IMG/VR virus record: IMGVR_UViG_3300042691_033377
Span: 1 to 24,004 of that record
Direction: 5' to 3' (one strand)
DNA length: 24,004 bases
DNA from: a virus
The notes beneath the pieces are model-generated. The model was not told the DNA's origin. It saw nothing but the letters and a program-made list of their open reading frames with translations, and searched no databases. Shown piece after piece: positions 262 through 22,723 of the stretch (within the stretch, counting starts at the first letter, position 1; each line of letters starts with the position of its first letter). The translations under genes were made by a program, and so were the position numbers.

Positions 262-612
262 ATGATACGACTACGAGATTTACTAACAGAATCTAACGCA
301 GGTTCACACCAATTACCTAATTTAGCATATTGGGAAAATATATGGCATCTGTTACGCAAACAATCGGTCAGTTTCAACACACCCGATCACAACACTTTTG
401 CATTCGGCGGACTATTTTTCTTTTTGGATGAAGACGAAGGCGTTTTGGAATTGCCTCCACAAAAATTATCGGATTGGCGTGATGTCCCGGACCAAGCTCG
501 CACCGTGTTAAACAACTATGTGAAGCGCATTCAATCTGCATTGGTAGAATTAGATGATGATGTACGTTTAGAAGTGGATGCTGACTATAGCATGAAAATA
601 CGCAAGGCATAA
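262..612 (+). CDS. Small hypothetical protein with capsid-targeting-like N-terminus
   Basis: A 116-residue protein of unknown function. I chose ATG 262 over the in-frame ATG at 238 because it gives the N-terminus MIRLRDLLTE, nearly the same as the next gene (MIRLKQLLSE) and the - strand gene starting at 13250 (MIRLSKLLAE). This leader of basic and hydrophobic residues ending in L-T-E at residue 10 resembles the T4 internal-protein leader cut by the gp21 protease after (L/I)-x-E. The rest is mixed and acidic, with aromatic patches (AFGGLFFFLDEDEG) and a C-terminal amphipathic stretch. The stop is one base before the next ATG, so the two genes are translationally coupled. An internal head protein is inferred from the leader only. 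Confidence 0.65.
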   Translation: MIRLRDLLTESNAGSHQLPNLAYWENIWHLLRKQSVSFNTPDHNTFAFGGLFFFLDEDEGVLELPPQKLSDWRDVPDQARTVLNNYVKRIQSALVELDDDVRLEVDADYSMKIRKA

Positions 613-613
613 C

Positions 614-1129
614 ATGATACGATTAAAACAACTTCTCTCGGAAATCTCTTTAGGCGGGGTGCAACCATATGCCACGCAGTTTACCTGGTCTCCCGAAGGG
701 CAAGGTGTATTCGAATGTAACATTGACGCGGACGGACATCGCATTGTTTTTTCCATGGTGTTAACTGCGACTCGCATGGGACGTGAATATGCGTTTGCCA
801 TGTTAGCTCAAGATCGCAGCAAAGAGGGTTTCACCGTAGCACACCATCGCAGTGAGGCACGGGGTCAAATCAATTATCTGCGTTTGTTGAGCACGGCGGC
901 AGAGGCAATTCTGGATTTTGTGAGTGTGCATGCACCGGTGGCGGTGGATGTTACCGGATCGGACACGCGAAGTCAAGAAAAAGATTTACAAAAGACTCGC
1001 ATCTATCGGGGCTTATTAAGTGCAAATGCTGCTAGATTGGCGACTGCTGGATACACTGTATTAGATAGAAGCGGTAAGCTCTATATAGTGCGTCGTAGCA
1101 CGGCGGATAGCACTGGTATAGCAGATTGA
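614..1129 (+). CDS. Hypothetical protein with capsid-targeting-like N-terminus
   Basis: A 171-residue protein starting MIRLKQLLSE, with a predicted (L/I)-x-E type prohead-protease site after residue 10. The body has alternating beta-type segments (GHRIVFSMVLTATRMGREYAFAML), then a helix (STAAEAILDFVSVH) and a segment GSDTRSQEKDLQKTRIYRGLL followed by a helix and GYTVLD. I recall similar 'GSD..KTRIY..LL' endings in small proteins of other large phages but cannot name the family. It lies one base after the preceding gene, so both are probably translated from one message. Codon use is GC-richer than in the downstream genes, suggesting a different recent history. Packaging into the head is inferred. 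Confidence 0.65.
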   Translation: MIRLKQLLSEISLGGVQPYATQFTWSPEGQGVFECNIDADGHRIVFSMVLTATRMGREYAFAMLAQDRSKEGFTVAHHRSEARGQINYLRLLSTAAEAILDFVSVHAPVAVDVTGSDTRSQEKDLQKTRIYRGLLSANAARLATAGYTVLDRSGKLYIVRRSTADSTGIAD

Positions 1130-1285: not shown

Positions 1286-1633
1286 GTGATAAAACTTAAA
1301 TCAATACTTGGCGAAGGATTTGCCTGGGAACGTAAGGCTGATGGGTCTTTGCCTACGATTGCTGATACTACCGCGGCATATCAATCTAAACTACGAGAAC
1401 AAGAAGAACTAGAAATGCCGGAAGAGGACGAAGAAGAACCAGTTGAAGAAGGTGCTAAGCCGGATTTTTTAGATTTAGATAAAGATGGTGATAAAGAAGA
1501 ATCAATGCGTGATGCTGCTGCAGAAAAAAAAGATGTAAACGAATCGTTTCTTATATCGAAAGCAGGTGAGCAACAAATACGAAATCGCCCGTTGCTTGAA
1601 AGAATTACAAAAAATCTTTATGGTAATAAATAA
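1286..1633 (+). CDS. Acidic protein with EF-hand-like loop and capsid-targeting-like leader
   Basis: A 115-residue protein. I chose GTG 1286, which has AAAGGA at 1275-1280, rather than ATG 1253, because the recurrent promoter element at 1262-1277 would otherwise lie inside the gene and because the result, (M)IKLKSILGE, fits the leader family with L-G-E ending at residue 10. The middle is very acidic (runs of E and D), followed by KPDFLDLDKDGDKEESM. This contains D-x-D-x-D-G, a calcium-binding EF-hand/dockerin-type loop. I have seen similar 'DFLDLDKDGD' segments in proteins of T4-like marine phages, but have no named function. A strong terminator follows the stop. Candidates are an internal head or scaffold-associated protein. 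Confidence 0.65.
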   Translation: MIKLKSILGEGFAWERKADGSLPTIADTTAAYQSKLREQEELEMPEEDEEEPVEEGAKPDFLDLDKDGDKEESMRDAAAEKKDVNESFLISKAGEQQIRNRPLLERITKNLYGNK

Positions 1634-2233: not shown

Positions 2234-2250
2234 TTATATTTATAATAAAG
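2234..2250 (+). promoter_or_regulatory. Putative phage late promoter element
   Basis: TTATATTTATAATAAAG begins two bases after the ferritin-like gene's stop. It runs into the AAAGGAAATG ribosome binding region of the 42-residue gene. It matches the recurrent late-type element. Confidence 0.5.
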
Positions 2251-2256
2251 GAAATG

Positions 2257-2385
2257 ATGAAAGCAGTTATAGGATTTTTTGTTGGTTGTGTCACATTATG
2301 TATCATTCCTTGGGTTTGTGTATATGAGTTAATAGTACCCCAGGAGCAAAACTATGGCAGCTGTGAAAAAAGTAAAGTCAAATAA
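2257..2385 (+). CDS. Tiny membrane protein
   Basis: A 42-residue frame starting at the second of two adjacent ATG codons, with AAAGGAAA just upstream and a late-type promoter element before that. Residues 3-25 (VIGFFVGCVTLCIIPWVCVYELI) are hydrophobic enough for one transmembrane helix, followed by a short polar tail ending KSKVK. It overlaps the next gene by 32 bases in another frame. No family is recognised. Small late membrane peptides of phages often act in lysis or superinfection control, but nothing here decides that. Confidence 0.6.
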   Translation: MKAVIGFFVGCVTLCIIPWVCVYELIVPQEQNYGSCEKSKVK

Positions 2386-2506
2386 TGTTAAATTGCATAT
2401 TAAAAAACCAAAAGTAAGACGTCCCGGTATTCATGCCAAGACAAAAACAAGTCGTAGCAAAAACGCTACTAATTATGCAAAACCTTATGTAGCGCAAGGA
2501 AGATGA
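2354..2506 (+). CDS. Tiny basic protein (GIHAKTK...NYAKPYVAQGR type)
   Basis: A 50-residue, very basic protein. The ribosome binding site is CAGGAG at 2341-2346. The N-terminal half is Lys-rich (VKKVKSNNVKLHIKKPKVRRP), and the rest reads GIHAKTKTSRSKNATNYAKPYVAQGR. I recall small phage proteins with the same 'GxHAKTK-SxxKNSxNYxKxYxGQGR' signature, including in Bacteroidota phages, but their role is unknown. The charge suggests nucleic-acid binding or a virion minor component. The stop overlaps the next start as ATGA, so it is coupled to the lysozyme fusion gene. Confidence 0.7.
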   Translation: MAAVKKVKSNNVKLHIKKPKVRRPGIHAKTKTSRSKNATNYAKPYVAQGR

Positions 2507-3831
2507 GACATCAAAAAAACATATTACGAGAACAAGAAGAACCAAAAAAACTTCGAGTGTTATTCATGGGAGATTCGCAGACTGCGATGTCTTCTATTAG
2601 TTATGCATATAAACTGATACGAGATGGTGTTGTAGATGGTAATGTAGTAGCTAAAGGCGGAGCTAATACATCGAAAATATTATCAATGATGCGTAATGCT
2701 ATAGACGATACATATGATGTTGTTTGTATTTTAGCTGGTAGCAATGATGCATGGCGCAAAACTGCAGATGTATCTGCAAAGAATTTATCAGCTATGTATA
2801 ATTTAGCACATCAGAATGGTGCTTTAGTAATTGCAATAACAAATCCTACAAAAAGACACACCAAAGATCCGAGTAAATATCCAGGTGCTAACGTAATTGC
2901 TGAATGGATACGATCTCAAAATATATCTGACTTCGTCGTCGATGCTCATTTATTAACACAGGACCGATCGAATTTCTTAGGAGACCGTATACACTTCAAT
3001 CAAAATGGGCAACGTATAATTTATGCAGAAGTAAAACAAATACTTAATAAATTGCAAGGTAGAAATACTCCGGAAACTGCTGAAGTACGTAAAACACAAG
3101 CAAAATTACAACGATTAGGATTTGATTTAGGTAAAGAAGCAGAGATTGGCGTAGCTGGCCCTAAAACAAAACAAGCTGTTGAAAAATTAAATAACAAATA
3201 TCAAAAGGCAAATGCTACAAATTCATGGTCTGACAAGGCAATGATATTCGCTGGTGGTATTTTATCAGTAGGATTTGTAAAAGATGCATTAGGATATATT
3301 GGGGTTGACACACAAAAACTTCAACAACGATGGATTGGGGGTGAAACTTCTAAAAAAACTACTACTCCAGAACCAAAAACTTCGGTAAGTCAGCTGCCTA
3401 GTAGTCAAATGGGACAATATATTGTAGATTTTTTCAAGAAAAAAGGTTTAACAATGTCTCAATCGGCTGGTATTGCTGGAAATCTTAAATTAGAATCTGG
3501 ATTTAAGCTTACTATTTTAGGAGATAATGGTACTTCGTTTGGATTAGCACAATGGCATAAGAATAGATGGGATAATTTAAAAAGTTGGTGTCAGAAAAAA
3601 GGATTGGATTATCGATCGGCCGACGGTCAATTGGAATTTTTATGGCATGAATTAAATACAGCTGAGCGAAATGCTTTAACACAATTAAAAAAACAAAAAA
3701 ACCCAGCAGATGCTGCATATGCATTTGCTAAATATTTCGAACGACCATCTGAAATTTCACAAGCACGAATGAAATATGCTGAAGAAATATATGACGATGC
3801 TACTGAAAGTGTATTAAACCGAATTGTATAA
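2503..3831 (+). CDS. SGNH hydrolase / peptidoglycan-binding / phage lysozyme fusion with capsid-targeting-like leader
   Basis: A 442-residue modular cell-wall enzyme. Residues 1-10 are MRHQKNILRE, a possible prohead-protease leader. Residues 17-185 look like an SGNH esterase/lipase: G-D-S at 23-25 (nucleophile S25), G-S-N-D at 80-83, and D162-x-x-H165 before FNQNG. Residues about 195-232 resemble a PG_binding_1 module (VRKTQAKLQRLGF...G-P-K-T-K-Q-A-V). Residues about 303-435 match the Phage_lysozyme2 type: SAGIAGNLKLESGF with probable catalytic E332, then SFGLAQWH and QLEFLWHEL. A likely role is hydrolysis and deacylation of host peptidoglycan. The leader suggests that it is packaged in the head and ejected, rather than being a cytoplasmic endolysin. 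That is inference; an endolysin or tail lysozyme is the alternative. Confidence 0.85.
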   Translation: MRHQKNILREQEEPKKLRVLFMGDSQTAMSSISYAYKLIRDGVVDGNVVAKGGANTSKILSMMRNAIDDTYDVVCILAGSNDAWRKTADVSAKNLSAMYNLAHQNGALVIAITNPTKRHTKDPSKYPGANVIAEWIRSQNISDFVVDAHLLTQDRSNFLGDRIHFNQNGQRIIYAEVKQILNKLQGRNTPETAEVRKTQAKLQRLGFDLGKEAEIGVAGPKTKQAVEKLNNKYQKANATNSWSDKAMIFAGGILSVGFVKDALGYIGVDTQKLQQRWIGGETSKKTTTPEPKTSVSQLPSSQMGQYIVDFFKKKGLTMSQSAGIAGNLKLESGFKLTILGDNGTSFGLAQWHKNRWDNLKSWCQKKGLDYRSADGQLEFLWHELNTAERNALTQLKKQKNPADAAYAFAKYFERPSEISQARMKYAEEIYDDATESVLNRIV

Positions 3832-4646: not shown

Positions 4647-4832
4647 ATGACATCACAAGAAATTTATGAAGTAATGGAATCACATTGGTTAGCATTCAAA
4701 GAAAATCATGAAAGATTTACAGACAAACAAGTAAAAGCTGCTGGGGTACGAGCTAGAAAATCAATTAATGAATTAAAAAAATTGGCAAGCAAATATCGTT
4801 CTACACAATTAGCCGAATCAAAATCTGAATAA
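4647..4832 (+). CDS. Histone H1-like (Hc1-type) DNA-binding protein
   Basis: A 61-residue basic helical protein. The core HWLAFKENHERFTDKQVKAAGVRARKSINELKKLASKYR closely follows the pattern of Bacteroidota/chlamydial Hc1-like histone H1 proteins ('F..F...-nKAAGtRaRKaL.eLKKLa.eyR'). These bind DNA without sequence specificity and condense nucleoids. The gene has its own late-type promoter element and AAAGAGG site, and its stop overlaps the next ATG (TAATG), coupling it to the 526-residue candidate internal protein. It lacks an L-x-E leader. Plausible roles are compacting phage DNA or remodelling the host nucleoid. The family match is by eye; the role is inferred. Confidence 0.75.
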   Translation: MTSQEIYEVMESHWLAFKENHERFTDKQVKAAGVRARKSINELKKLASKYRSTQLAESKSE

Positions 4833-6412
4833 TGAAACGTTTAGACTATATCATTGAAAATGCGATTATGAAGTTAATCGAACAAGATGTACCGCCTGAG
4901 GGGGGTGATGCCGCGGATGTTGGTAAAAAGAAAGAAACTGATAATGCTCCGTCGGATGCCGAAGTTTCGCCATTTACCCCAGCTGAAGAAAAATTTCTTG
5001 GAAAGTTTGATGCATATGGTACTACACACTTAGGAATTATTTATTCTCCTACTGATATTGGAATTCGAGAATTTTTAGGTAGATCGGGAAATGACTTAAA
5101 TTGTACGCCTGGTATACTTTTAAAATTATTACGAAATAAAATTATTAAAATAGTTCCATATACCGGATTTGGTCGTAATACTGACTATACTATAGAATTG
5201 CAATTATCGTTAGACGATGTTAAGGGGTTAGGTAAAGAGGATAAAGAAAAAGCCGAAGCTGGTTCTAGTGCTAGTGGCGCTCCGGCTGGCGGTGGTGAAG
5301 CTGCTGCCCCTGCACCTGAAGTAGCGTGGTTTGTACCTAAAGGCACGTTAATCCGCGAAACAAATACCAATGAGTTTGATGAGTTTATTAAACTACTAGC
5401 AGAAGCTAAAGATACAGAAATTAAACCTGGTAAAGAAAAACAATATCTAATTAGCAAGTATCCTGGTATTGATCTTTATGTAGATAGAGCTTTGAATTTT
5501 TGGAATGACTCAGCACAGTATATACCGTCGGTTACCGTATTTGGTAAATGGAATTGGGATGAATCGGAGTTTACAAAGTCAGTTGATGATAATTTATTAA
5601 AAGGCGGACAGCGTCAGGCTATGTATATTGATGCAATTGGTCAAATTATTAAAGATTCTACATCGACTATAGATGACATTGCAGAACCAGCAGTAAAGTT
5701 TTTATTGCAGTTTCAAGGCAGTGATTATGATGTAGTATTGAATTTATCAGTGTTAGGTGACCGAGCATACCGTTTAAAATATTTATTTGATAATGAACTT
5801 TTATATAGTGTGTTTGATGATGATCCTAACTGGTTTAAAAAGTTTAAATCAGTAATACAATCATCAAAAATTGGTTATTTTACAGAAACTACTAGAAATA
5901 TGGTTAGAAAAGATGATGGCGGTAAAGAAATAACATTTGCTCAACAATTCTATCCAGCATATTCAGAAGCACAGATTTCTGCTTTAGTTAATAAAATTTT
6001 AACTCCATATAAATTAATAATAAAACGAGGTAATAAAAAAGTTGATACAACGAAAATATCACTTCGAGATACCTTAACAAATACACAAATAAAATCGCGT
6101 GCTAAATATGCTAAGTCTTTAATCAATAAAGATATAAAAAAATATTTTACAGGATATAAACCTAAAGGACTCGAACTTGGGAATATGGATTGGCCAAACA
6201 TCGAAGATATTCCTTTTTATAAAGGTGCATGGGTTGATAAAGATGGATTTGGATATGTATGGTTTCAAATTGATACTGCAACAAGTGCTAGATTATATCC
6301 ATCTAAAAAAGGCGTATTAGCAAATACCAAAACTGGAAAAATTACAAAAACCGGTAAATGGAATTTGATATGGGATCGTAGTAAACAACGATGGGGTATA
6401 CAAGTACAATAA
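4832..6412 (+). CDS. Large hypothetical protein, candidate internal head protein
   Basis: A 526-residue protein with no recognised catalytic domain. The N-terminus MKRLDYIIENAIMKLIEQD holds two (L/I)-x-E sites, I7-I-E9 and L15-I-E17, consistent with prohead-protease processing. Residues 20-45 are acidic and disordered. About 50-130 form a small folded domain (EEKFLGKFDAYGTTHLGIIY...), then an Ala/Gly/Pro linker (145-163) leads to a large mixed domain. The C-terminal 60 residues (YKGAWVDKDGFGYVWFQIDTATSARLYPSKKG...WNLIWDRSKQRWGIQVQ) are aromatic and beta-rich, like a carbohydrate-binding or SH3-like module. It follows the histone-like gene with overlapping stop/start. It could be delivered with DNA, but function is unknown. 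Confidence 0.65.
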   Translation: MKRLDYIIENAIMKLIEQDVPPEGGDAADVGKKKETDNAPSDAEVSPFTPAEEKFLGKFDAYGTTHLGIIYSPTDIGIREFLGRSGNDLNCTPGILLKLLRNKIIKIVPYTGFGRNTDYTIELQLSLDDVKGLGKEDKEKAEAGSSASGAPAGGGEAAAPAPEVAWFVPKGTLIRETNTNEFDEFIKLLAEAKDTEIKPGKEKQYLISKYPGIDLYVDRALNFWNDSAQYIPSVTVFGKWNWDESEFTKSVDDNLLKGGQRQAMYIDAIGQIIKDSTSTIDDIAEPAVKFLLQFQGSDYDVVLNLSVLGDRAYRLKYLFDNELLYSVFDDDPNWFKKFKSVIQSSKIGYFTETTRNMVRKDDGGKEITFAQQFYPAYSEAQISALVNKILTPYKLIIKRGNKKVDTTKISLRDTLTNTQIKSRAKYAKSLINKDIKKYFTGYKPKGLELGNMDWPNIEDIPFYKGAWVDKDGFGYVWFQIDTATSARLYPSKKGVLANTKTGKITKTGKWNLIWDRSKQRWGIQVQ

Positions 6413-9784: not shown

Positions 9785-10912
9785 TTATTGTTTTGTCGGT
9801 GCTATTTCACCTTCTTTACCAGTAATCGATGTACTAGTAGATACAGCTCCACTTACAGCACCAGATCTGGACGTAGTATTACTATATAGTATAAATAATT
9901 TATCTGTTGCTTCTTTTGTATATGTAGAAATATTTTGCGTTTTTGAATATGAATTAATCAATGCATTTAATGAAGTTAATGCATCTAATGGAACTCCAGC
10001 TGCCTCACAACGCATTGCAATATATTTTTTAAACTTAGATACAAATCTGCTAATCCATAAACTAAAGTATATTCGACAAAAACTTTCTACTGCGGGTTTA
10101 GCTGCATCTGTATTATTAATTCGCTTTCCGTTGTATTGAAAAGTTGATATATCTATTGGATCCATATTCTGAAATACCGAGTCTTCTTCAGTTGTTATAT
10201 CTGCTATACTAGGTCTCGCGGAGTATCCGAATATACGAGAAATTTCAGAAATACCTTTAGATCTACGTTCCATCCCGGGTTTCACTAATGATTCTTCATT
10301 TGTCGCTGTAGGTTGTAATGCTGCTGATGCAATCATTGTACGAATCACATCACTTCCAAAGTCATTTGCCGCATCTTGAAATCCAGTTTTAACATTGAAA
10401 AAACTAGCAATAACTTTGGTTGTGTTCAATGTAATTGATAGGCCGGAAGTAAGTGTTAATCCGAAACGTTTCTTTTCAGAATTTGCTGTAACTGCTCTAC
10501 CTAAAGCAAATATACCATTACCAGATGCTTCGATTGATTGACCGACTAAATCGGCAAATGTAATAATCATCGATGATGGAGCAGTACCACTAATTACTTT
10601 TTCTCCAATTTTTAAATAGTGAGCCTCATTCACTGTTTTTGGTCCGACTGCATAAACTTTCGCAGTTGCACCAGCTGCTTTCTTGATGCAGGTAGTTGAT
10701 GAAATAGTACCATTTACAGTATAGCCAGCTTTTATAAATGCAGCAACTGCAGCAGCATTAGTTGTGTTTGATTTAGTAGCACCAACAACTGCGCAACCAT
10801 CGGTTATATTTGCTAAAGCGTCTTCAGTTAATAATTGCAATGCATGTTTCTGCGATTCAGTTAAATTCTTTACTCCAAATCTAAGTAAATTTTCTGCTAA
10901 AATATTTTTCAT
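9785..10912 (-). CDS. Candidate internal head protein, paralog 1 of 3
   Basis: A 375-residue protein starting at 10912 (AAAGGAAATA-ATG). The leader MKNILAENLLRFGVKNLTESQKHALQLLTED has L-x-E sites at residues 7, 19 and 30. The next region, DGCAVVGATKSNTTNAAAV..FIKAGYTVNGTISSTTCIKKAAG, is shared with its two neighbours, as are HYLKIGEKVISGTAPSSMIITF and GNGIFALGRA. A later helical part (FVSKFKKYIAMRCEAAGVPLDAL) precedes an S/T/G-rich tail ending GKEGEIAPTKQ. No enzyme motif is visible. It is closest to the adjacent 376-residue paralog. An abundant packaged or structural protein is inferred from leader, duplication and late-type promoter. Confidence 0.7.
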   Translation of the reverse strand: MKNILAENLLRFGVKNLTESQKHALQLLTEDALANITDGCAVVGATKSNTTNAAAVAAFIKAGYTVNGTISSTTCIKKAAGATAKVYAVGPKTVNEAHYLKIGEKVISGTAPSSMIITFADLVGQSIEASGNGIFALGRAVTANSEKKRFGLTLTSGLSITLNTTKVIASFFNVKTGFQDAANDFGSDVIRTMIASAALQPTATNEESLVKPGMERRSKGISEISRIFGYSARPSIADITTEEDSVFQNMDPIDISTFQYNGKRINNTDAAKPAVESFCRIYFSLWISRFVSKFKKYIAMRCEAAGVPLDALTSLNALINSYSKTQNISTYTKEATDKLFILYSNTTSRSGAVSGAVSTSTSITGKEGEIAPTKQ

Positions 10913-10924
10913 TATTTCCTTTTA

Positions 10925-12055
10925 TTATTTTTGTCCGCTAGCACCTGTAATTGAGCCTTCTTTACCAGCAATAGATGTGCTAGTAGCTCGAGCACCAACT
11001 GAACTTCCGGATGTTACGGTTACGTTTGTATATATAAGACTTGCTGCTTTCACTGCTTCATCAGTATATGTGGTAATGTTTTGTATTGTTGCATATGAAT
11101 CGATAATTGAATTCAATGTAGCCAAAGCATCTACTGGCACGCCGGCTGCTGTACATTTTAATTCAATATACTTTTTAAACTTAGCAGCAACACTATTAAC
11201 ATATTGTTTAAAATATCGGTTACAAAACGCAGTAACATATGGTTTTGCAGCACTGAAACTATTAATTTTTCGTCCAATATCTGGATCGGATGAAGAATCA
11301 AATGATCCAACTGTTTTTATAGCTTCTTTGTCAGCATCTGTCATATCCGATAAAGAAGGCCTAGCAGTGCTTGAAAATATTTCTGAATTTCTAGCGGTAC
11401 TAAATTCTCTTCGCTTCATCCCGGGTTGAATTAAAGTAGACCCGGTTCCGGTAGGTTGTAATATAGAATATGCAATCATTTGTCGAATAACATCACCGGC
11501 AAACCGATTCGAAGTGTCTTGAAACCCGGTTTTAACATTAAACATACTAAGCATAACTTTACTTGTGTTCAATGTAATTGATAAACCAGCTGCCATAGTT
11601 AAACCAAATTGTGCAGCAGATGATTTAGCTTTGAGTGCCCGTCCTAATGCATATATTCCGTTACCAGCTGCTTCGATTGCTTGACCTTTTAAATCACTAA
11701 ATAAAATGATCATGGATGATGGAGCAGTTCCTTGTATTATTTTATCTCCAATTTTTAAATAATGTGCTGCATTCACTGTTTTTGGGCCAACTGTATATGA
11801 ATTAGAGATTCCCCCGGCAGCTTTCTTGATGCAGGTAGTCGACGAAATGGTACCAGCAACTTTATATCCGGCTGTAATAAATGCTTCTACGGCACCTGCA
11901 TTTGTTGTGTTAGATTTAGTAGCACCAACTACTGCACATCCATCAGTTACTCCTGATAATACCTCTTCGGTTAATAACTGTAATACTTGTTTCTGCGATT
12001 CAGTTAAATTTTTTGCTCCAAATCTAAGCATGTTTTCTGCTAAAATATTTTTCAT
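10925..12055 (-). CDS. Candidate internal head protein, paralog 2 of 3
   Basis: A 376-residue protein. I chose the start at 12055 (AAAAGGAAACA-ATG) since it gives MKNILAENMLRFGAKNLTESQKQVLQLLTEE, almost identical to paralog 1; an open stretch further upstream overlaps the neighbouring gene and is not needed. It shares the DGCAVVGATKSNTTNA block, SSTTCIKKAAGG, HYLKIGDKIIQGTAPSSMII, GNGIYALGRA, FNVKTGFQD, and the tail GKEGSITGASGQK. Nucleotide identity persists in patches, for example CTTTCTTGATGCAGGTAGT in both, indicating fairly recent duplication. It lies 12 bases from paralog 1 and 25 bases from paralog 3, in one - strand operon. Function unknown. Confidence 0.7.
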   Translation of the reverse strand: MKNILAENMLRFGAKNLTESQKQVLQLLTEEVLSGVTDGCAVVGATKSNTTNAGAVEAFITAGYKVAGTISSTTCIKKAAGGISNSYTVGPKTVNAAHYLKIGDKIIQGTAPSSMIILFSDLKGQAIEAAGNGIYALGRALKAKSSAAQFGLTMAAGLSITLNTSKVMLSMFNVKTGFQDTSNRFAGDVIRQMIAYSILQPTGTGSTLIQPGMKRREFSTARNSEIFSSTARPSLSDMTDADKEAIKTVGSFDSSSDPDIGRKINSFSAAKPYVTAFCNRYFKQYVNSVAAKFKKYIELKCTAAGVPVDALATLNSIIDSYATIQNITTYTDEAVKAASLIYTNVTVTSGSSVGARATSTSIAGKEGSITGASGQK

Positions 12056-12080
12056 TGTTTCCTTTTTATATTCTTTTTTA

Positions 12081-13250
12081 TTATTTGGGTTTAATTGGTG
12101 AAATTTCACCTTCTTTACCACCACCGGCAGCACCACCGGACATTGCACCAACCGTTGTTCTAGTACCGCCAGCAACCTTTTGTGGAGTGAAAAAGTATTC
12201 TTTAACAGCTTCGTTAGTAGAAGCTAAATATGTATCTTGTTTCTGTGAAGCAACCCAAGAATCGATATATGTTTTAATAGGAAATGCAGCATTTGCTGAC
12301 ATTCCATACGCAACTGCTTGATCTTCACACCATTTTTTAAATCTTTCGCCCAATGAAGTTATCCACGTTTTAAAATATGTATCAGTAAATTTTTTCATTG
12401 ATGCAGCTGCTTCAGACTGTGTAGTAAAATTTTTCCCGGCATCTTGAAATGCAGATGTATCTGGTACTGGGCTAACTGATTCGTATTTTGATTGATCAAA
12501 CCCCGATGTACTAATCTGCGGCATTGCTCTTCTATTTAGTAAACTACCACCAGTTCCTTTAGCTTTAAGATTGTTTCCAATAGCATTGGATTGATTATTA
12601 AAATTATTTGGTTTTACAGCACCAATTGCAACTAACGTAGCAGATGCTGCAAATGCCCATGATTGAATTGCATTTTGAAATCCGGTGTCAATTTTAAACC
12701 AAGCCCCTCCAACTGGTTTAGGAGCATTTAATTCAATTATCAAAGCAACATTAGCAAATTTCATGCCTTGACCTTTCATTGCCGATCTAGTAACATACGC
12801 TCGACCTAAAGCAAATATACCATTTCCAGCTGCCTCAATTTCTTGTGATTGCAAATCTAATGGGGTAATTCGCATTAGTGATGATTGAGTTCCTTGAATT
12901 ATTTTATCACCGATTTTTAAATAATGCTGTTGATTAATCGATTTAGCTGCAGGAACATATGGTCCATCACTACCAGCTGCTTTTTTAATGCATTGTGTTT
13001 CAGTTACAGTTCCATTAACAGCAACGCCAGCTGCTTTAATTGCCTCTACAGCTTTAGCAGTACTTGTAAAAGTTTTTGATGCACTTGCGAATCCGGCGCC
13101 AACTATAACATCGGATATTCCTGATTGTTGTTCTGCTAAAAATATTTGTTCTGCTAAATGTTTGGCACGCAATTTATCTTTTTTAGATAATTTTTTACTT
13201 TGACTAACAGAATCTAATCCTTCTGCTAACAATTTTGATAAACGTATCAT
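12081..13250 (-). CDS. Candidate internal head protein, paralog 3 of 3
   Basis: A 389-residue protein, the promoter-proximal and most diverged member of the triplet. The leader MIRLSKLLAEGL matches the 10-residue leader form of the genes at 262 and 614, and further L-A-E sites occur at residues 34 and 40. Shared blocks are VNGTVTETQCIKKAAGSDG, HYLKIGDKIIQGTQSSLMRI, AAGNGIFALGRAYV, FKIDTGFQNA, a KFTDTYFKTWITSLGERFKKWCE helix region, and the tail GKEGEISPIKPK. A late-type element lies about 30 bases upstream on the - strand. The combination suggests successive duplication of one packaged protein followed by divergence. Confidence 0.7.
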   Translation of the reverse strand: MIRLSKLLAEGLDSVSQSKKLSKKDKLRAKHLAEQIFLAEQQSGISDVIVGAGFASASKTFTSTAKAVEAIKAAGVAVNGTVTETQCIKKAAGSDGPYVPAAKSINQQHYLKIGDKIIQGTQSSLMRITPLDLQSQEIEAAGNGIFALGRAYVTRSAMKGQGMKFANVALIIELNAPKPVGGAWFKIDTGFQNAIQSWAFAASATLVAIGAVKPNNFNNQSNAIGNNLKAKGTGGSLLNRRAMPQISTSGFDQSKYESVSPVPDTSAFQDAGKNFTTQSEAAASMKKFTDTYFKTWITSLGERFKKWCEDQAVAYGMSANAAFPIKTYIDSWVASQKQDTYLASTNEAVKEYFFTPQKVAGGTRTTVGAMSGGAAGGGKEGEISPIKPK

Positions 13251-15783: not shown

Positions 15784-16560
15784 ATGTTAGAAGCAGAAAA
15801 AATAAAAACAAACTGGGAAATGTATCGGGCTATTGTTAATACTACATTTCCTACCCGTAAAGATGCATTAAATAAAATGTATGATGATTTTGAAGATCGT
15901 ATTGCATTAATGCCGGCTTCATCTATTGCACATTTTCATAATGCATTTGCCGGAGGTTATGTTGATCATATACTTCGTGTTATTGATTGCACTAAAGCAT
16001 TGTATGTAACATGGAAGTCGATGGGGGCTGATATGTCAGGTTATACTGAGGAAGAAATGATATTTGCAGCAATGCATCATGATTTAGGTAAAATAGGATT
16101 TCCAGGCGATGGTAATGAAGTGTATCAAGTAGAAACATCGGATTGGCATCGAAAGAATCAAAACAAGATGTACAAACACAATGAAAACATTCCATTCTCA
16201 ATGGTACCAGATCTTTCTATTTGGTTGCTACAAGAATATGATGTTAAAATGTCTTGGAATGAATATCAAGCAATTAAGATACATGATGGTATGTATGATG
16301 ATTCTAATAAACCATATTTTGTCGCTCGTTCAGCTCAAGCTAAATTAAAAACAAATCTTCCTATTTTATTGCATCATGCCGACCATATGGCTGCTCAGAT
16401 TGAATATGAACGATGGAGGAACCGCAACGCATCGACACCAAAGCCGGTTGCTGAAAAAAGCAAGGTAACTAAAAGTAACGGACTTAAAAACCTAGCAGAA
16501 AATAATCCAGATGTGGAAAAGACATTAACAGATATTTTTAGTGCATTTAACCAGGATTAA
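15784..16560 (+). CDS. HD-domain phosphohydrolase
   Basis: A 258-residue protein with HD-superfamily metal ligands: GGYVDH (H62), AAMHHDLGKIG (H98/H99 and D100), IKIHDG (H167, D168) and LLHHADHMA (H197/H198, D200). The order H...HD...D is that of HD phosphohydrolases acting on nucleotides or cyclic nucleotides. The substrate is not determined; dNTP, (p)ppGpp-like or cyclic signalling nucleotides are possible. The C-terminal 45 residues are polar and probably disordered. It is 2 bases before a small membrane protein gene, which overlaps the late sigma factor gene, so all three are likely on one transcript. It may tune nucleotide pools or host second messengers during infection. Confidence 0.8.
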   Translation: MLEAEKIKTNWEMYRAIVNTTFPTRKDALNKMYDDFEDRIALMPASSIAHFHNAFAGGYVDHILRVIDCTKALYVTWKSMGADMSGYTEEEMIFAAMHHDLGKIGFPGDGNEVYQVETSDWHRKNQNKMYKHNENIPFSMVPDLSIWLLQEYDVKMSWNEYQAIKIHDGMYDDSNKPYFVARSAQAKLKTNLPILLHHADHMAAQIEYERWRNRNASTPKPVAEKSKVTKSNGLKNLAENNPDVEKTLTDIFSAFNQD

Positions 16561-16562
16561 TT

Positions 16563-16862
16563 ATGTTGATTACATTTATAATACTATTTGTTATAGCATT
16601 AGGATCTGCAATATATATTGGATACCGGGCTTATTATCTAGCCGGTAAAATTGCCGATGCCTTAGAATACATTGAGGAATTAGAATTAACTAATGAATAT
16701 ATGTATGGTAAAATTGTGCAATCACACGATATCATGCAGCAAATAGACCGATTAGGTTCGTTTGAAGCAGAAGATGAAGCTGGCACTACATTCCAATTAT
16801 TAAATGAAGTTATAACTGAACTTAAAGAACAATTTGATGGCACGACGCAAGAAGAAAAGTAA
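16563..16862 (+). CDS. Small single-span membrane protein
   Basis: A 99-residue protein with one N-terminal membrane span (LITFIILFVIALGSAIYIGY) followed by a helical, acidic cytoplasmic or periplasmic segment (IADALEYIEELELTNEYMYGKIVQSHDIMQQIDRL) and a Glu-rich end. It is a likely coiled-coil partner protein. Its 3' end overlaps the late sigma factor gene by 26 bases, coupling the two. No family is assigned. Confidence 0.65.
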   Translation: MLITFIILFVIALGSAIYIGYRAYYLAGKIADALEYIEELELTNEYMYGKIVQSHDIMQQIDRLGSFEAEDEAGTTFQLLNEVITELKEQFDGTTQEEK

Positions 16863-17535
16863 TATTTATTTTACTAAGATAACAGATATTGCAATATCAG
16901 CATATAATAAAGCAGATAAACCTGTAACCCGAGAAAAAATATATCGTAGATTTATCTATCCAGCTTTCATGAAGTTAGCAGAAAACTTAATTAATAAAGT
17001 AAAACCTACTTATATTGATTCAAGTTTTTCTGATTTACAAACCGATTTAGTTACATTTTTAACTGAACGTTTAAATAAATTCAATCCAAATGCAGGTAAA
17101 GCATATTCATATTATACCAGAACTTCATTTAATTATTTAATTGCAGAAAATCAAAAAGCATATTCAAAACTTAAATCGGATATGCAAGAAATTGATATAG
17201 ATGAACAGCGAAATATCATAACAGAAATTCATAACGATGAAATGCGCGAAACACTACATTATTTTATGAATGGTTATGTAGAATATTGTTATGATAACTT
17301 GAATTTTATATTTAATAATCCTGTAGATATTCATGTAGCTGATTCAGTATTACATATTTTCGAAACCAGAGAAAATATTGAAGATTTCAATAAAAAAGCA
17401 TTGTATATTTTTATACGAGAGCGTACGGGTTTAGAAACAACTAACATTACCAGAGTTATAAAAGTATTGAAACAAATATACGAAGAAAAATTTTTAGCAT
17501 ATGAACGTAATAATTTCGTAAATCTCCCTTTTTAA
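16837..17535 (+). CDS. gp55-like sigma factor for late transcription
   Basis: A 232-residue protein resembling the T4 gp55 late sigma family, a minimal sigma with mainly a region-2-like domain. It starts at ATG 16837 (MARRKKKSNIYF) inside the previous gene. The core segment SFSDLQTDLVTFLTERLNKFNPNAGKAYSYYTRTSFNYLIAENQKAY (about 68-115) matches sigma region 2: helix, 'FDP..G.....Y....', then helix. In T4, gp55 with RNA polymerase core, gp33 and the gp45 clamp reads TATAAATA promoters. The hydrophobic C-terminus (NNFVNLPF) could be a clamp-contacting tail. The recurrent ATATTTATA elements in the window are its likely targets. The family call is by eye and the identity is moderate. Confidence 0.75.
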   Translation: MARRKKKSNIYFTKITDIAISAYNKADKPVTREKIYRRFIYPAFMKLAENLINKVKPTYIDSSFSDLQTDLVTFLTERLNKFNPNAGKAYSYYTRTSFNYLIAENQKAYSKLKSDMQEIDIDEQRNIITEIHNDEMRETLHYFMNGYVEYCYDNLNFIFNNPVDIHVADSVLHIFETRENIEDFNKKALYIFIRERTGLETTNITRVIKVLKQIYEEKFLAYERNNFVNLPF

Positions 17536-17549
17536 TATTTATTATTAAA
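17533..17549 (+). promoter_or_regulatory. Putative phage late promoter element (variant)
   Basis: TAATATTTATTATTAAA begins at the stop of the sigma gene and is followed by AAAGGA and ATG 17561. It would drive the tail block starting with the 144-residue gene. Confidence 0.45.
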
Positions 17550-17560
17550 GGATTTACGTT

Positions 17561-17995
17561 ATGGACAAGAATGATGAATTATTTAAAGGTACCACATTCG
17601 CGGACCTAATGTCCGATGTGTATCATAATTCTAAAAAAAAAGATAGGCAAATCAATCAATTGATTGCTCAGTTACAACCACTAATTCGCAATGCATCAGA
17701 TGCTACTATCATTGTACCTTTAATTAAAGAGTACTTAGATGTAGCTGTAAAGAATGATGATCATCTTGTTAAATTAACAGCAATCGTTCAGCGATATATT
17801 TCGACTAAACAGACAATATCTGGTGCTGATAGTTTATTATCAGAAGAAGAAAAAAATCAATTATTAAAAATTGCTGAAAAAACTTTATCTGATGAATTAA
17901 CAGATGAGATTGATAATATTACACATGAAGATGAACTATTAAAACAAAAAATAGCTATAGCAAAAAGCAAAGTGGAAAAGGGTACGAATGAATAA
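17561..17995 (+). CDS. Hypothetical helical protein next to the late sigma factor
   Basis: A 144-residue, mostly helical, acidic protein (DRQINQLIAQLQPLIRNASDATIIVPLIKEYLDVAVKNDDHLVKLTAIVQRYI...LLSEEEKNQLLKIAEKTLSDELTDEIDN). It is located between the gp55-like gene and the baseplate hub gene and overlaps the latter by 8 bases. A late co-activator role (T4 gp33-like) would fit the position, but I see no motif to support it. A virion assembly factor is equally possible. Confidence 0.6.
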   Translation: MDKNDELFKGTTFADLMSDVYHNSKKKDRQINQLIAQLQPLIRNASDATIIVPLIKEYLDVAVKNDDHLVKLTAIVQRYISTKQTISGADSLLSEEEKNQLLKIAEKTLSDELTDEIDNITHEDELLKQKIAIAKSKVEKGTNE

Positions 17996-18992
17996 CATTC
18001 AATTTCACATTGGAGAAGTAGTAGCAGAACCTAGGGTTAAAACATACGAATATTCTGACAAAAATAATTTTCAAATATTTGTAAAAACATATACTGATTA
18101 TTACAATCAAGAAGAAATACGAGCGATTCCTCTTAATTCTAATATAAAACAAATACCTAGAGTAGGGGAACATGTTTTATTAGTTAGTGGATTAGATGTA
18201 GAAAATGATTCACAAACCATGTATACGAAATGGTATTATGTTTCTACATTCTCGGTATTATCAGATGTTAATAGTGACTTTTTACAGGGAGTAGCAAAAT
18301 ATACAAATACATATACGCCGCCATCATCATTTATAGAACGAGAAGTTTCTTTTTTACAGCCATATGAAGGCGATAGTATTTTTGAAGGTCGTTTTGGAAA
18401 TACTATTAGATTAGGTAGTACAATTGTAGGCGGCCAATATCAAAATCCTACATCCTGGAAAGGATTGAATTCAGGTGATCCGATAATAGTTATATCAAAC
18501 GGAGCTCCATATAAAAAAAATTCATATATTGTAGAAAATCCAGAAACAGACCAATCATCTTTATATTTAACTAGCACACAGAATATACCTAGTTTACTAT
18601 TAGGAGATAAAAATTCTAGAAATCCATTAAACTGTTTTTTACCTAATGAATCTAAATTTTCAAAATCACAGTTTATCGGAGTTGCAGACCGTATTATATT
18701 AAAAGCAAAAACTGACGTTGCAGTAATTGATTCTCCTACGGCAATTATTTTGAATACCACTGGCGATGTTAGAATTGGATCTGATGAAGCAGATCAATCC
18801 ATGGTGCATGGCGATGTTTTACTTAATATTATACAATTATTAATTACGCAAATGTTATCTGGAGTACAGATTGGCGATACATATGCCCCATCTGGGGGGT
18901 ATGCTAATAGCGGTACATATGCACAACAAGCACAAACGCTACTTAAAGATTTACTAAGTTCTACATATTTTATTAAGAAAAATACATATTAA
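17988..18992 (+). CDS. Baseplate hub/spike OB-fold protein (gp5 N-terminal/gpV-like)
   Basis: A 334-residue virion protein. Residues about 35-85 have OB-fold character (KTYTDYYNQEEIRAIPLNSNIKQIPRVGEHVLLVSGLD), as in the N-terminal domain of T4 gp5 and related hub spikes. Residues 117-140 include PYEGDSIFEGRFGNTIRLGS, a segment I associate with T4-like hub proteins. The C-terminal part (DVAVIDSPTAIILNTTGDVRIGSDEADQSMVHGDVLLNIIQLL) resembles the end of gpV-type spike domains. Unlike T4 gp5 it has no lysozyme domain; wall lysis may be supplied by the fusion enzyme encoded at 2503-3831. It heads the tail gene block. Confidence 0.75.
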   Translation: MNNIQFHIGEVVAEPRVKTYEYSDKNNFQIFVKTYTDYYNQEEIRAIPLNSNIKQIPRVGEHVLLVSGLDVENDSQTMYTKWYYVSTFSVLSDVNSDFLQGVAKYTNTYTPPSSFIEREVSFLQPYEGDSIFEGRFGNTIRLGSTIVGGQYQNPTSWKGLNSGDPIIVISNGAPYKKNSYIVENPETDQSSLYLTSTQNIPSLLLGDKNSRNPLNCFLPNESKFSKSQFIGVADRIILKAKTDVAVIDSPTAIILNTTGDVRIGSDEADQSMVHGDVLLNIIQLLITQMLSGVQIGDTYAPSGGYANSGTYAQQAQTLLKDLLSSTYFIKKNTY

Positions 18993-19000
18993 GGAAAGTT

Positions 19001-19843
19001 ATGGCATCTATAGTACCACCATTAGATTTTATACCAAAATTACCAGGTATTGGCGCTGAATTAGTTGGTGAACAATTAAATAAACAGCTAGATCAGTTTA
19101 CGCAAATAGCATCACAAACTATACAAGATTCAGTAAAATTACCAATCGATTGTAAATGTGATGATCCTCGTATTAAAAAAATAAAAGAACAATTAGCAGA
19201 GGTACAAAAACAAATAACAACCATACAAGAAAATATTCCAAAAATACAACAAACAATTAATCAAGTTAAACAAGTTGTTAATACGGCACAAAGTATAAAA
19301 GCAACAATAGCAGCTGCTCAATTATCAAATCCAGTTACTGCTCCGTTATTTATAGCACAACAGTTAACTGCAATACAAGATGCTACTATAGTTAATGCAA
19401 TCAATTCGTTATCACAATTTTCTACGTTGCCTACTCAACTTACAGGTCGTTTACAAACATTAGTTCCACCGCTTATATCGGCATTAACAAAAGTCGATAA
19501 TGCATGTAGCGGTACCGGAGATACTACTTCATTAATAATTCCAGAATCATTGACTGATTTGAATTTAGATAATTATAATGATTTAGCTTCAAGTGAATTC
19601 TACAATGAATTAAATGTATCTGATGCAGATTTACGAGATCGATCCAACCAAATTGAATCGTTAATATCGAGACAACAAAATTTGTTAGAATCATTGCAAG
19701 AAGCTCCTAGTCAAGTTTATCAGGATCAAGGACTACCAGATTCTGAATTAGGAAAAACTGGAGATTATTATATAGATTTAACTACGAGTCAAATTTATGG
19801 ACCTAAACTAACAGCAACAGATTGGGGACAGCCCATAAATTAA
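19001..19843 (+). CDS. Tail or baseplate-associated coiled-coil protein
   Basis: A 280-residue protein with a good site AAGGAAAG before the ATG. A Cys-rich spot (DCKCDDPR, about 50-57) is followed by a long Gln-rich coiled coil (IKKIKEQLAEVQKQITTIQENIPKIQQTINQVKQVV). The last 40 residues, ending SELGKTGDYYIDLTTSQIYGPKLTATDWGQPIN, match a recurrent 'GDYYID..T..IYGPK....WG' end found on many phage fibre or fibre-tip proteins. It lies between hub and wedge genes and is presumably a virion component. Exact role unknown. Confidence 0.65.
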   Translation: MASIVPPLDFIPKLPGIGAELVGEQLNKQLDQFTQIASQTIQDSVKLPIDCKCDDPRIKKIKEQLAEVQKQITTIQENIPKIQQTINQVKQVVNTAQSIKATIAAAQLSNPVTAPLFIAQQLTAIQDATIVNAINSLSQFSTLPTQLTGRLQTLVPPLISALTKVDNACSGTGDTTSLIIPESLTDLNLDNYNDLASSEFYNELNVSDADLRDRSNQIESLISRQQNLLESLQEAPSQVYQDQGLPDSELGKTGDYYIDLTTSQIYGPKLTATDWGQPIN

Positions 19844-19849
19844 TATTTA

Positions 19850-19867
19850 CAATATTTATATAAAAAG
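19850..19867 (+). promoter_or_regulatory. Putative phage late promoter element
   Basis: CAATATTTATATAAAAAG lies 6 bases before ATG 19874 and repeats the 1702-1717 element almost exactly. It would drive the gp25/gp6-like operon. Confidence 0.5.
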
Positions 19868-19873
19868 TATAAT

Positions 19874-20371
19874 ATGGATTCAAAAACGTTGATAAAAGCA
19901 CTTAAATTAGCAGTGCGAGATGTTATTAAAGAAGAATTAACTGATATTCTTCGCGAAGGGTTACAATCTACAATAACGGAAATGAAACAACCTAAAACGA
20001 CATTACCAAAACAAAAAATTAATACTTCGACTACAGCAAAAAGACCGGTAAAATTCGAAGAAAACCGATGGGCATCTATACTAAATGAAACAGATCCGTT
20101 ATCTGAACAAGCGCCATTAGCAATGAATAGTTTTAAAGATATGATGCACGAAGGAATGGAAGAAATTCGAATGTCTTCTAAAGATGCACAAGGATTTAGT
20201 TCAATGCGGCAGAATATGAAATCTGCAATGGGTTTAGCACCAGAAGTACCACAAGTAATGGAAGATCCGGAAACTGGTAAAACATATGAAGTAGCCCCAG
20301 AAGTGCAACAAGCATTAACTAGAGATTATTCGTCGTTAATGAAGGCAATAAATAAAAAGAAAGGTAATTAA
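19874..20371 (+). CDS. Hypothetical virion-region protein
   Basis: A 165-residue protein with a basic amphipathic N-terminal helix (MDSKTLIKALKLAVRDVIKEELTDILREG), containing I18-K-E20 and L26-R-E28, so it may be processed by the prohead protease. A Thr/Lys/Pro-rich linker (about 37-60) follows, then Met-rich acidic helices (SFKDMMHEGMEEIRMSS) and MEDPETGKTYEVAPEVQQALTRDYSSLMKAI. It overlaps the gp25-like gene (TAATG). A core or baseplate assembly factor is possible; I recognise no family. Confidence 0.6.
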   Translation: MDSKTLIKALKLAVRDVIKEELTDILREGLQSTITEMKQPKTTLPKQKINTSTTAKRPVKFEENRWASILNETDPLSEQAPLAMNSFKDMMHEGMEEIRMSSKDAQGFSSMRQNMKSAMGLAPEVPQVMEDPETGKTYEVAPEVQQALTRDYSSLMKAINKKKGN

Positions 20372-20844
20372 TGCCATATCAGGTAGCAAATATAAATCAA
20401 ACTAGTAATCCAAACACGGCATTAGGAATCACATTACCTTTTAATGGCGCTAATGGGTTGTTTTCGTCTACCTACACAACACAACAACAAGCAATTAGCA
20501 ATTTAAAAAATTTATTGTTAACTGTTAAAGGCGAACGTGTACAACATCCTAAATTTGGTACAGATTTAGTTAGATTGTTATTTGAGCCTAATACCGATGT
20601 TATAAAACAAAATGTAAATGAAGTTATAACAGAACCAGTTAGTCGGTGGTTACCATACATTAATATAATTGAAATTAAAACTATAACCGCTGAAGAAGAT
20701 CCAAATTTGGATCATAATATTTCTATATCAATTACATTTAATCTCGTTGACAATTTATTAAAAGAAGATGATTTAACTACGATAACGTTAAATGCATCTA
20801 ATAATCAAATAACGATATCGGATTCTGCTACAAATGGAAACTAA
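20371..20844 (+). CDS. gp25-like baseplate wedge protein
   Basis: A 157-residue protein of the GPW/gp25 family, a conserved wedge component that joins the baseplate to the tail sheath initiator in contractile tails. The middle segment TTQQQAISNLKNLLLTVKGERVQHPKFGTDLVRLLFEPNTDVIKQNVNEVITEPVSRWLPYINIIEI has the family pattern: a helix, the 'GER...P.FG..L..llFEp' block, then the helix leading to 'RW.P.i.i'. It overlaps the gp6-like gene by 11 bases, the same gp25-then-baseplate-J order seen in many contractile phages. Confidence 0.88.
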   Translation: MPYQVANINQTSNPNTALGITLPFNGANGLFSSTYTTQQQAISNLKNLLLTVKGERVQHPKFGTDLVRLLFEPNTDVIKQNVNEVITEPVSRWLPYINIIEIKTITAEEDPNLDHNISISITFNLVDNLLKEDDLTTITLNASNNQITISDSATNGN

Positions 20845-22714
20845 AAAAGATATATCATATTTAGGTAAAGATTTTAATCAATTTCGAAAGAATCTGATTG
20901 ACTTTACTAAACAATATTTTCCACAAACATATACTGATTTTAATGAATCATCGCCTGGTATGATTTTCTTAGAATTAGCTTCATATGTGGGAGATGTATT
21001 ATCATATTATGCTGATAATAATTTAAGAGAATCATTTTTAGAGCAAGCATCGGAAAGAACTAATATATATGATTTAGCAAAATCTTTAGGATATGTTCCT
21101 AATAATGTTGTTCCTGCATATGTTACTTTAGATATTTTTCAATTGCTCCCAGCAACAGGGACTGGAGTTAACGTACAACCAGACTATAGTTATGCACTGT
21201 CAATCAAACCAGGAATGCGTATTAAACAAAACAATGGTTCTGCGATATTCCGTACATTAGACAGTGTAGATTTTGAATTTTCATCATCATATGATACAAC
21301 TGAAGTTACTGTGTATGAAAGTGATGAAGTAACAAAATTACCTACATATTATTTATTAAAAAAACAAGTACGTGCTGTATCTGGCGATGTAAAAGTTGGT
21401 TCATTTGATTTTACAACTCCAATTGCATATGATAAAATTATACTTCCAGAAAGTAATATTATTGAAGTATTATCCGTTGTAGAGTCAGATGGGGATAACT
21501 GGTATCAAGTTCCATATTTAGCACAAGATACAATATTTGAAGACGTACCTAATTTAGCAGAAAATGACCCGGATTTATCTGTATATCGGTCATCAGTTCC
21601 TAGTTTATTAAAACTTAGAAAAACAGCTAAACGATTTATTACTAGATTACGTAGTGATAATCGTTTGGAAATACAATTTGGCGCCGGGATATCGGATAAT
21701 AACGATGAAGAAATAATACCTAATCCTACAAATGTAGGAAATGGATTAAGTTCATTTAGAAGATCTGTTGATATTGATATAGATCCATCGAACTTTTTAT
21801 ATACTAGAACATATGGACAATCTCCATCTAATACGACATTAACAGTTACATATACTATAGGAAATGGTATTATAGACAACGTGCCAGCAAATACGTTAAC
21901 AGATATTAGTTTTTTAGAATATAATGATGATGTCAATGCTACTACAAATGCCGGATTAGTTAATTTTGTTAAATCTACAGTTGCAGTAAATAATCCTAGT
22001 CCAGCCGCCGGAGCTAAAACAGCAGATACAATACAAGATATAAAAAACAATGCTTTAGCTAATTTTGCTACTCAAAACCGTTTAGTAACAAGAGAAGATT
22101 ATATTATACGTGCATATTCATTGCCAGCAAAGTATGGAAGTGTATCAAAAGCATATATTGTTCCAGATGATCAAATATCACAACAAGATTACGAAGAATC
22201 TAGAATACCTAATCCATTAGCAATGAACATGTATGTGTTAGGATTTAATGATTCTAAACAACTAGTAGCATTAAATCAGGCTATAAAAGAAAACTTAAAA
22301 ACATATTTAGGATATTATAGAATTTTAACAGATGCTGTTAATATTAAAGATGCTTTTATTATTAATATAGGAGTTGATTTTGAAATTTCAGTGTTACCTA
22401 ATTATAATAGTAATGAAGTTTTATTAAATTGTATTAATGTATTAAAATCATTTTTCGATGTCGACAGATGGCAAATTAATCAACCTATAATAAAATCTGA
22501 TATTACTACTACAATATCTAATGTAAAAGGCGTACAATCTGTTATCGGAATAACTTTAAAAAATTTATATGATACAGATTTTGGATATTCTGGTAACATA
22601 TATGATTTAACTACGGCAACAAAAAATGGAGTAATTTATCCATCTTTAGATCCAAGCATATTTGAAATTAAATTTCCGACTCGCGATATAAAAGGCCGAG
22701 TAGTAAATTATTAA
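20834..22714 (+). CDS. gp6-like (baseplate J) wedge protein
   Basis: A 626-residue protein, close to T4 gp6 (660), the ring-forming wedge subunit. The N-terminus FNQFRKNLIDFTKQYFPQTYTDFNESSPGMIFLELASYVGDVLSYYADNNLRESFLEQASERTNIYDLAKSLGY is the typical start of T4-type gp6/baseplate J proteins ('F..sd.gm.llel.ayv.d.l.Yy.d...nE.fl..A..R..v..la..lGY'). The C-terminal third contains RLVTREDYIIRAYSLPAKYGSVSKAYIVPD, another baseplate J hallmark. Its place after gp25 confirms the call. Confidence 0.9.
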   Translation: METKKDISYLGKDFNQFRKNLIDFTKQYFPQTYTDFNESSPGMIFLELASYVGDVLSYYADNNLRESFLEQASERTNIYDLAKSLGYVPNNVVPAYVTLDIFQLLPATGTGVNVQPDYSYALSIKPGMRIKQNNGSAIFRTLDSVDFEFSSSYDTTEVTVYESDEVTKLPTYYLLKKQVRAVSGDVKVGSFDFTTPIAYDKIILPESNIIEVLSVVESDGDNWYQVPYLAQDTIFEDVPNLAENDPDLSVYRSSVPSLLKLRKTAKRFITRLRSDNRLEIQFGAGISDNNDEEIIPNPTNVGNGLSSFRRSVDIDIDPSNFLYTRTYGQSPSNTTLTVTYTIGNGIIDNVPANTLTDISFLEYNDDVNATTNAGLVNFVKSTVAVNNPSPAAGAKTADTIQDIKNNALANFATQNRLVTREDYIIRAYSLPAKYGSVSKAYIVPDDQISQQDYEESRIPNPLAMNMYVLGFNDSKQLVALNQAIKENLKTYLGYYRILTDAVNIKDAFIINIGVDFEISVLPNYNSNEVLLNCINVLKSFFDVDRWQINQPIIKSDITTTISNVKGVQSVIGITLKNLYDTDFGYSGNIYDLTTATKNGVIYPSLDPSIFEIKFPTRDIKGRVVNY

Positions 22715-22723
22715 AGGTAATCA

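Follow-up and report, generated by a model that had tools for sequence, protein, structure and literature searches.

A T4-type capsid-targeting leader predicted on an SGNH-lysozyme fusion enzyme of an uncultured phage

Gene content of the window

The stretch of DNA analysed here (the window, 24,004 nucleotides of an uncultured virus) carries on its plus strand an ORF of 442 aa, the ATG start of which overlaps the stop of the upstream gene (ATGA). The enzyme gene and its immediate surroundings are organized as follows (positions refer to the window):

2236..2243, plus strand: candidate late promoter, ATATTTAT motif, upstream of the 2354-3831 gene pair
2354..2506, plus strand: gene for a 50-aa basic protein, translationally overlapping the enzyme gene and kept beside it in the related contigs G002 and G018
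2503..3831, plus strand: leader-SGNH-PG_binding-Phage_lysozyme2 gene (442 aa ORF, Pfam)
2503..2532, plus strand: predicted capsid-targeting leader MRHQKNILRE, predicted cut after Glu10 (PSSM score 11.3)
2563..3018, plus strand: SGNH/GDSL hydrolase domain, residues 21-172 (Lipase_GDSL_2, PF13472, E 1.2e-10, Pfam)
3079..3186, plus strand: PG_binding_1 motif, sub-threshold, residues 193-228 (PF01471, E 2e-4)
3415..3795, plus strand: Phage_lysozyme2 domain, residues 305-431 (PF18013, E 6e-32), presumed catalytic Glu331

The fusion of an SGNH domain, a PG-binding element and a Phage_lysozyme2 domain, which the initial annotation had proposed for 2503-3831, was recovered by Pfam with its catalytic residues present. 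The window protein covers positions 4-138 of the 140 in the PF18013 profile, a near-whole-domain match, and among solved structures that of the phi29 gp13 lysozyme domain (3csr, E 8e-9) comes closest to the ORF, with Glu331 aligned to Glu45, the catalytic residue of gp13. By profile and catalytic Glu the enzyme is thus assigned to the Phage_lysozyme2 family as a predicted muramidase. This domain family is shared with phi29 gp13 and the Phage_lysozyme2 tail lysins, which, in contrast, are tail-tip or tape-measure proteins with neither a capsid leader nor an SGNH domain. The SGNH blocks are likewise intact (GDS 23-25, GxND 79-82, DxxH 161-164), and the full set of blocks (GDS, Gly, GxND, DxxH) was found in the window enzyme and in the orthologues of G002, L204 and L205. 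The PG_binding_1 motif scored 21.8 bits, under the Pfam gathering cut-off of 23, and is absent from the L204 and L205 orthologues; what had been described as a PG-binding repeat is a single, weak motif. The AlphaFold model of the enzyme had a pLDDT of 43.6, too low for fold comparison.

Near the enzyme gene lies a ferritin-like protein gene (1729-2232, PF00210, E 1e-16), the place of which is taken in G002 and G018 by a gene for a 124-aa protein of other sequence. Contig G004 (33,839 bp, IMGVR_UViG_3300008450_000213) overlaps the window at 16092-24004, with all sampled 40-mers identical, and continues it by about 26 kb downstream, up to a terminase gene.

The ATATTTAT motif, followed by an A/T-rich stretch, is strand-specific and mostly located 20-35 nt 5' of start codons. 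Its sites in the window are:

1263, 1703, 2236, 4617, 6438, 8009, 14396, 17535 and 19852, plus strand: ATATTTAT sites
13293, minus strand: ATATTTAT site

It stands upstream of 39 genes of G002, compared to 3.2 expected, including those for the portal, the sheath, the tail tube and GroEL, and is regarded as a candidate late promoter that differs in type from the T4 late promoter TATAAATA, for which no enrichment upstream of genes was detected. The link of the motif with leader genes is modest only (7/16 vs 31/195, p 0.012).

Leader sequence and orthologous slot

Three contigs in IMG/VR encode a protein 68% identical to the window enzyme. One of these, G002 (159,977 bp), contains a T4-type head module with a gp20 portal (PF07230), an S77 gp21-type prohead protease (PF03420, E 1e-32) and gp23 (PF07068, E 1e-74), and also encodes a contractile sheath. 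The nearest cultured relatives of its gp23 are those of Flavobacterium phage immuto (57.5%) and then of a Microcystis phage (54%). The gp21-type (S77) protease and gp23 were found in G002, G003, G005, G015 and G018; the 24-kb window itself contains no head genes. Among the cultured phages of the collection there was no full-length relative of the enzyme, its lysozyme domain alone giving matches, mostly to tail lysins and tape-measure proteins. A match in cyanophage S-RIM44 was rejected as a full-length relative, as this protein is large, leaderless and encoded in the tail region.

In T4 the first ten residues of IPIII are enough for packaging, residues 4 and 7 of this leader controlling targeting and residues 8 and 10 processing, and the prohead protease gp21 cleaves after L/I-X-E (PMC9026906). 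T4 IPII and IPIII start with MKTYQEFIAE/A (here and below a slash marks the cut, which is predicted for all the sequences of the present phages). The window enzyme (MRHQKNILRE/Q) and its orthologues (MIRLKDLLSE, MIRLKSLLFE, MKHIKLIE) begin with a comparable leader, about 10 residues long and with L/I-x-E at its end, and residues 7, 8 and 10 of MRHQKNILRE agree with both the T4 CTS and the leader family of the phage itself. Residue 7, Ile, fits, and residue 4 is a Gln at a position that is hydrophobic in the leader family and Leu or Ile in the orthologues. The likeness to T4 IPI-III and Alt thus includes the leader length, the L/I-x-E ending with its Glu as residue 10, the hydrophobic nature of residues 7 and 8, and the gp21-type protease, gp20 and gp23 of the relatives, whereas the consensus differs (MKTYQEFIAE in T4 vs MIRLKxLLxE here).

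A position-specific matrix (PSSM) built from the G002 leaders, without that of the enzyme, gave MRHQKNILRE a score of 11.3, a value reached by 6.9e-5 of internal 10-mers, i.e., above 99.993% of them. In G002, 16 proteins have the motif h[LI]xE (h, hydrophobic) with its Glu as residue 10, compared to 0.58 expected from internal motif frequencies (p 2.5e-18), and the excess is confined to residue 10, neighbouring Glu positions in this genome not showing it. Excesses were also observed in G018 (11 vs 0.69, p 1.9e-10) and G005 (6 vs 0.37, p 2.4e-6). The proposal that MRHQKNILRE is a leader was therefore upheld, as a match beyond chance in the matrix and as a member of a family in excess in three genomes, and noise from N-terminal composition was discarded as its source by the specificity for Glu10. 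The same motif count gave no excess in RM378 and a weak one in Mel-JY01 and in immuto; the Glu10 excess is not general to T4-like relatives.

Other leader-bearing ORFs were located in the window:

262..612, plus strand: ORF with leader MIRLRDLLTE/S
614..1129, plus strand: ORF with leader MIRLKQLLSE/I
1286..1633, plus strand: ORF from a GTG start with leader MIKLKSILGE/G (G002 orthologue MIKLKNILAE/G)
4832..6412, plus strand: ORF with longer leader MKRLDYIIENAIMKLIE/Q (orthologues end TITE/Q and IIAE/Q)
9785..10912, minus strand: paralogue with leader MKNILAENLLRFGVKNLTE/S
10925..12055, minus strand: paralogue with leader MKNILAENMLRFGAKNLTE/S
12081..13250, minus strand: ORF with leader MIRLSKLLAE/G

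The three minus-strand genes at 9785-13250 form a tandem trio of paralogues of 375-389 aa, each leader-tagged; two of them were scanned and gave no Pfam match. The ORF at 4832-6412 belongs, with its orthologues in G002, L096 and L204, to a second leader type in which [LI]xE is followed by Gln at residue 14-18 (KLIE/Q, TITE/Q, IIAE/Q). The leader of the G002 enzyme, MKHIKLIE/Q, is two residues shorter than that of the window and scores low on the 10-residue matrix; [LI]xEQ is enriched 3.9-fold at the N-termini of G002 proteins.

Orthologues were sought with a degenerate DNA scan for the leader, in which 120 of the 123 matches listed sit near an ORF start, and with a search using the SGNH domain. 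L204 and L205 encode 360-aa SGNH-Lysozyme2 proteins starting MIRLKDLLSE/QTEPKKLRVLFVGDSQT (MIRLKDLLSE/QTEPKKLRVLF across the predicted cut). The L096 protein has the same leader, but the Asn of GxND is missing from its SGNH domain and its C-terminal region is different. In the G018 orthologue (589 aa, MIRLKSLLFE/D) the SGNH domain is devoid of its catalytic Ser, and Phage_lysozyme2 is accompanied by an additional domain at the C-terminus. Flanking genes are common to the window, G002, L096, L204 and G018. The presence of the canonical leader on orthologues no more than 48% identical indicates that MRHQKNILRE is a diverged copy of that leader.

The leader and Phage_lysozyme2 occur together in four of the five lineages and a catalytic SGNH domain is kept in three; the leader is thus more constantly associated with the lysozyme than with the esterase. 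The genomes G002, G003, G005 and G018 contain exactly one Phage_lysozyme2 domain each, which invariably lies in the slot of the enzyme. Removal of O-acetyl groups by the SGNH domain, as suggested in the initial annotation, is plausible for the proteins with a complete catalytic set; as two lineages have lost catalytic residues and still keep the leader, the system cannot depend on the esterase. The SGNH domain has its fold family and catalytic blocks in common with the Ape1-type peptidoglycan O-acetylesterases, to which the match is a distant one at superfamily level, so this activity is a prediction.

Leader-bearing wall enzymes and the candidate hub

The same leader is found on unrelated muralytic families (GH24, other Phage_lysozyme2 proteins, SleB) and these are enriched over neighbouring genes. 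G002 has a second tagged muralytic gene, encoding a GH24 lysozyme with MIHLKSILSE/A (PF00959, E 2e-7); this protein has 40 matching loci in IMG/VR, with Glu10 in 27 of 28 distinct start-complete sequences. The nearest cultured-phage relative of the leader-bearing GH24 is a lysozyme domain within the virion RNA polymerase of an N4-like phage, which is packaged in the head and ejected. In a sample of loci from the leader scan, comprising at least 63 non-redundant leader-bearing proteins, there were at least five with Phage_lysozyme (GH24), at least three with Phage_lysozyme2 and at least one with SleB, whereas none of these domains appeared in the best 25 of 69 families listed for 126 leaderless neighbours. 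As the control covers 25 of the 69 families and single-member muralytic families could be hidden among the remainder, the Fisher p value ranges from 3e-5, if none is hidden, to 0.003, if three are. In T4 the cargo of this type of leader consists of anti-restriction and ADP-ribosylating proteins (IPI-III, Alt), in contrast to the predicted wall-degrading enzyme described here.

Two further leader-bearing proteins were recorded. A tagged 294-aa protein (L162:5694-6578), the C-terminal region of which matches a PHROG of baseplate hub/tail lysozymes (E 2e-6), is a candidate further lysozyme with the leader. A common protein of 178-188 aa with GxGDNGRVYEIDGEDKxFKIT (L084, L100, L101, L113, L133, L137 and many more, as well as G004:16167 and G002:45633) looks like a small protein-kinase-like fold and is predicted to be head cargo.

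The tail genes were inspected for a lysozyme of the kind carried by T4 gp5, which the initial annotation had reported to be lacking from the hub protein at 17988. The ORF concerned is:

17988..18992, plus strand: putative baseplate hub/spike, from its position upstream of gp25/gp6-like genes

No lysozyme was detected in this ORF with Pfam, PHROG, NCBIfam or PDB. Its identity as a hub is putative, taken from gene order only, as no match to T4 gp5 was obtained by hhalign, Pfam or PDB; the AlphaFold model (pLDDT 35.5) is too poor for fold comparison. The large tail proteins of G002 also gave no lysozyme match, and in this genome a holin-like gene adjoins one for an endolysin-like, PG-binding protein. 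M23, Amidase_2, M15_4 and SleB were searched for in G002-G005 and G018 and none was found; G018 has one SLT gene, outside the tail region.

T4 gp5 and the enzyme have in common that a virion lysozyme is proposed to open the peptidoglycan at entry. They differ in that gp5 is at the tail spike, whereas here a separate leader-bearing protein with another lysozyme family accompanies a candidate hub without lysozyme. In P1, gp5 is a T4-like spike without lysozyme and muralytic activity resides elsewhere in the virion, as proposed here, but in the tape measure protein Sit (PMC9024508) and not in a predicted head protein.

Proposed route of entry and its alternatives

Based on the available evidence, it is somewhat probable that the window gene encodes a late wall-degrading enzyme which would be sent to the prohead core by a T4-type leader, packaged in the head and ejected with the DNA, as one member of a cargo class. 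The enzyme would be a late product, with the ATATTTAT element at 2236 as its possible promoter, and MRHQKNILRE would bind the scaffold core. A gp21-type protease, the gene for which is taken from the relatives and not from the window, would then cut after Glu10, leaving Q11-EEPKK... in the head, and the mature enzyme would be ejected along with the DNA. During transit through the periplasm the Phage_lysozyme2 domain may cut peptidoglycan, to which the PG-binding motif would hold it, and O-acetyl or other esters may be stripped by the SGNH domain; the domains are seen in the protein and their activities are predicted. The head targeting put forward in the initial annotation has good comparative support from the Glu10 excess in three genomes, the canonical leaders on syntenic orthologues, the other tagged muralytic enzymes and the gp21-type protease of related genomes, and the head location itself stays a prediction.

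The main difficulty of this model is delivery into the cytoplasm. T4 internal proteins and Alt end there (PMC9026906), where a muramidase has no substrate, so the enzyme would end up across the membrane from the peptidoglycan unless it acted in transit. Such action at the wall has been proposed for the lysozyme domains of polyvalent virion proteins (PMC5512222).

The same fate of IPs and Alt (PMC9026906) favours an alternative in which the enzyme is head-packaged by its leader for a purpose other than entry: it might act inside the new host, on the wall from inside at a later time (lysis aid, superinfection block), or on another sugar ester or glycan. The many leader proteins resembling takeover factors (e.g., kinase-like proteins, a zeta-toxin-like ATPase) and the lysis cassette that G002 already has also speak for this role, but it is considered unlikely, as the cytoplasm offers no peptidoglycan to a muramidase and the repeated acquisition of the leader by several unrelated muralytic families fits a wall barrier better. 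That the protein is an ordinary endolysin or tail-associated lysozyme, with a non-functional likeness to the leader, would agree with the typical occurrence of Phage_lysozyme2 in tail lysins and tape-measure proteins and with the off-consensus residue 4. This is judged quite improbable in view of the syntenic orthologues with canonical leaders and the Glu10 excess in three genomes; moreover, in G002 the enzyme gene is away from the baseplate and tail genes and a separate endolysin-like gene has a holin-like neighbour. A signal for a target other than the prohead, e.g., another phage assembly or the membrane, is highly improbable: the leader start is short, amphipathic and basic, is found on many proteins of unknown function, and its cleavage rule comes from T4 and not from the gp23 of this phage, but the features that matter in the T4 CTS (PMC9026906) recur in it, namely the length, the hydrophobic positions 7 and 8 and Glu10, and the genomes carrying it encode a gp21-type protease.

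Head packaging for entry, the reading preferred here, can be extended to the clade. The chances seem evenly balanced that in these T4-like phages the task of penetrating the peptidoglycan has passed from the tail spike to the head, with unrelated wall hydrolases (SGNH-Lysozyme2 fusions, GH24, Lysozyme2, SleB) being leader-tagged, processed by the protease and ejected with the DNA as an exchangeable module.

The initial annotation had regarded the head as an unusual location for wall degradation in a T4-like phage. For T7 gp16, wall action in transit has been proposed, a precedent for a head-packaged wall enzyme. N4-like virion RNA polymerases and other polyvalent proteins contain lysozyme domains that are likewise head-packaged and proposed to breach the wall at injection (PMC5512222), but they are giant multidomain proteins of podoviruses or prophages, whereas single CTS-tagged enzymes of T4-like phages are concerned here. 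Head-packaged wall enzymes have precedents in other phage groups, and for the T4-like CTS case the open literature gave no account of a tagged wall hydrolase (subscription journals were outside the search). Each element has been described before (the CTS, lysozymes in virions, wall hydrolases packaged in heads); their combination on several unrelated hydrolases in T4-like phages was not found described in that literature.

T4-like phages are the model of contractile-tail entry, in which a tail-tip lysozyme cuts the wall. If the proposal is true, membrane puncture would be separated from wall digestion in these relatives and the CTS would be a general cargo address. Head cargo of uncultured phages could then be predicted simply by looking for the leader in their sequences, and the neo-N-termini expected right after Glu10 may be sought in existing virome proteomics.
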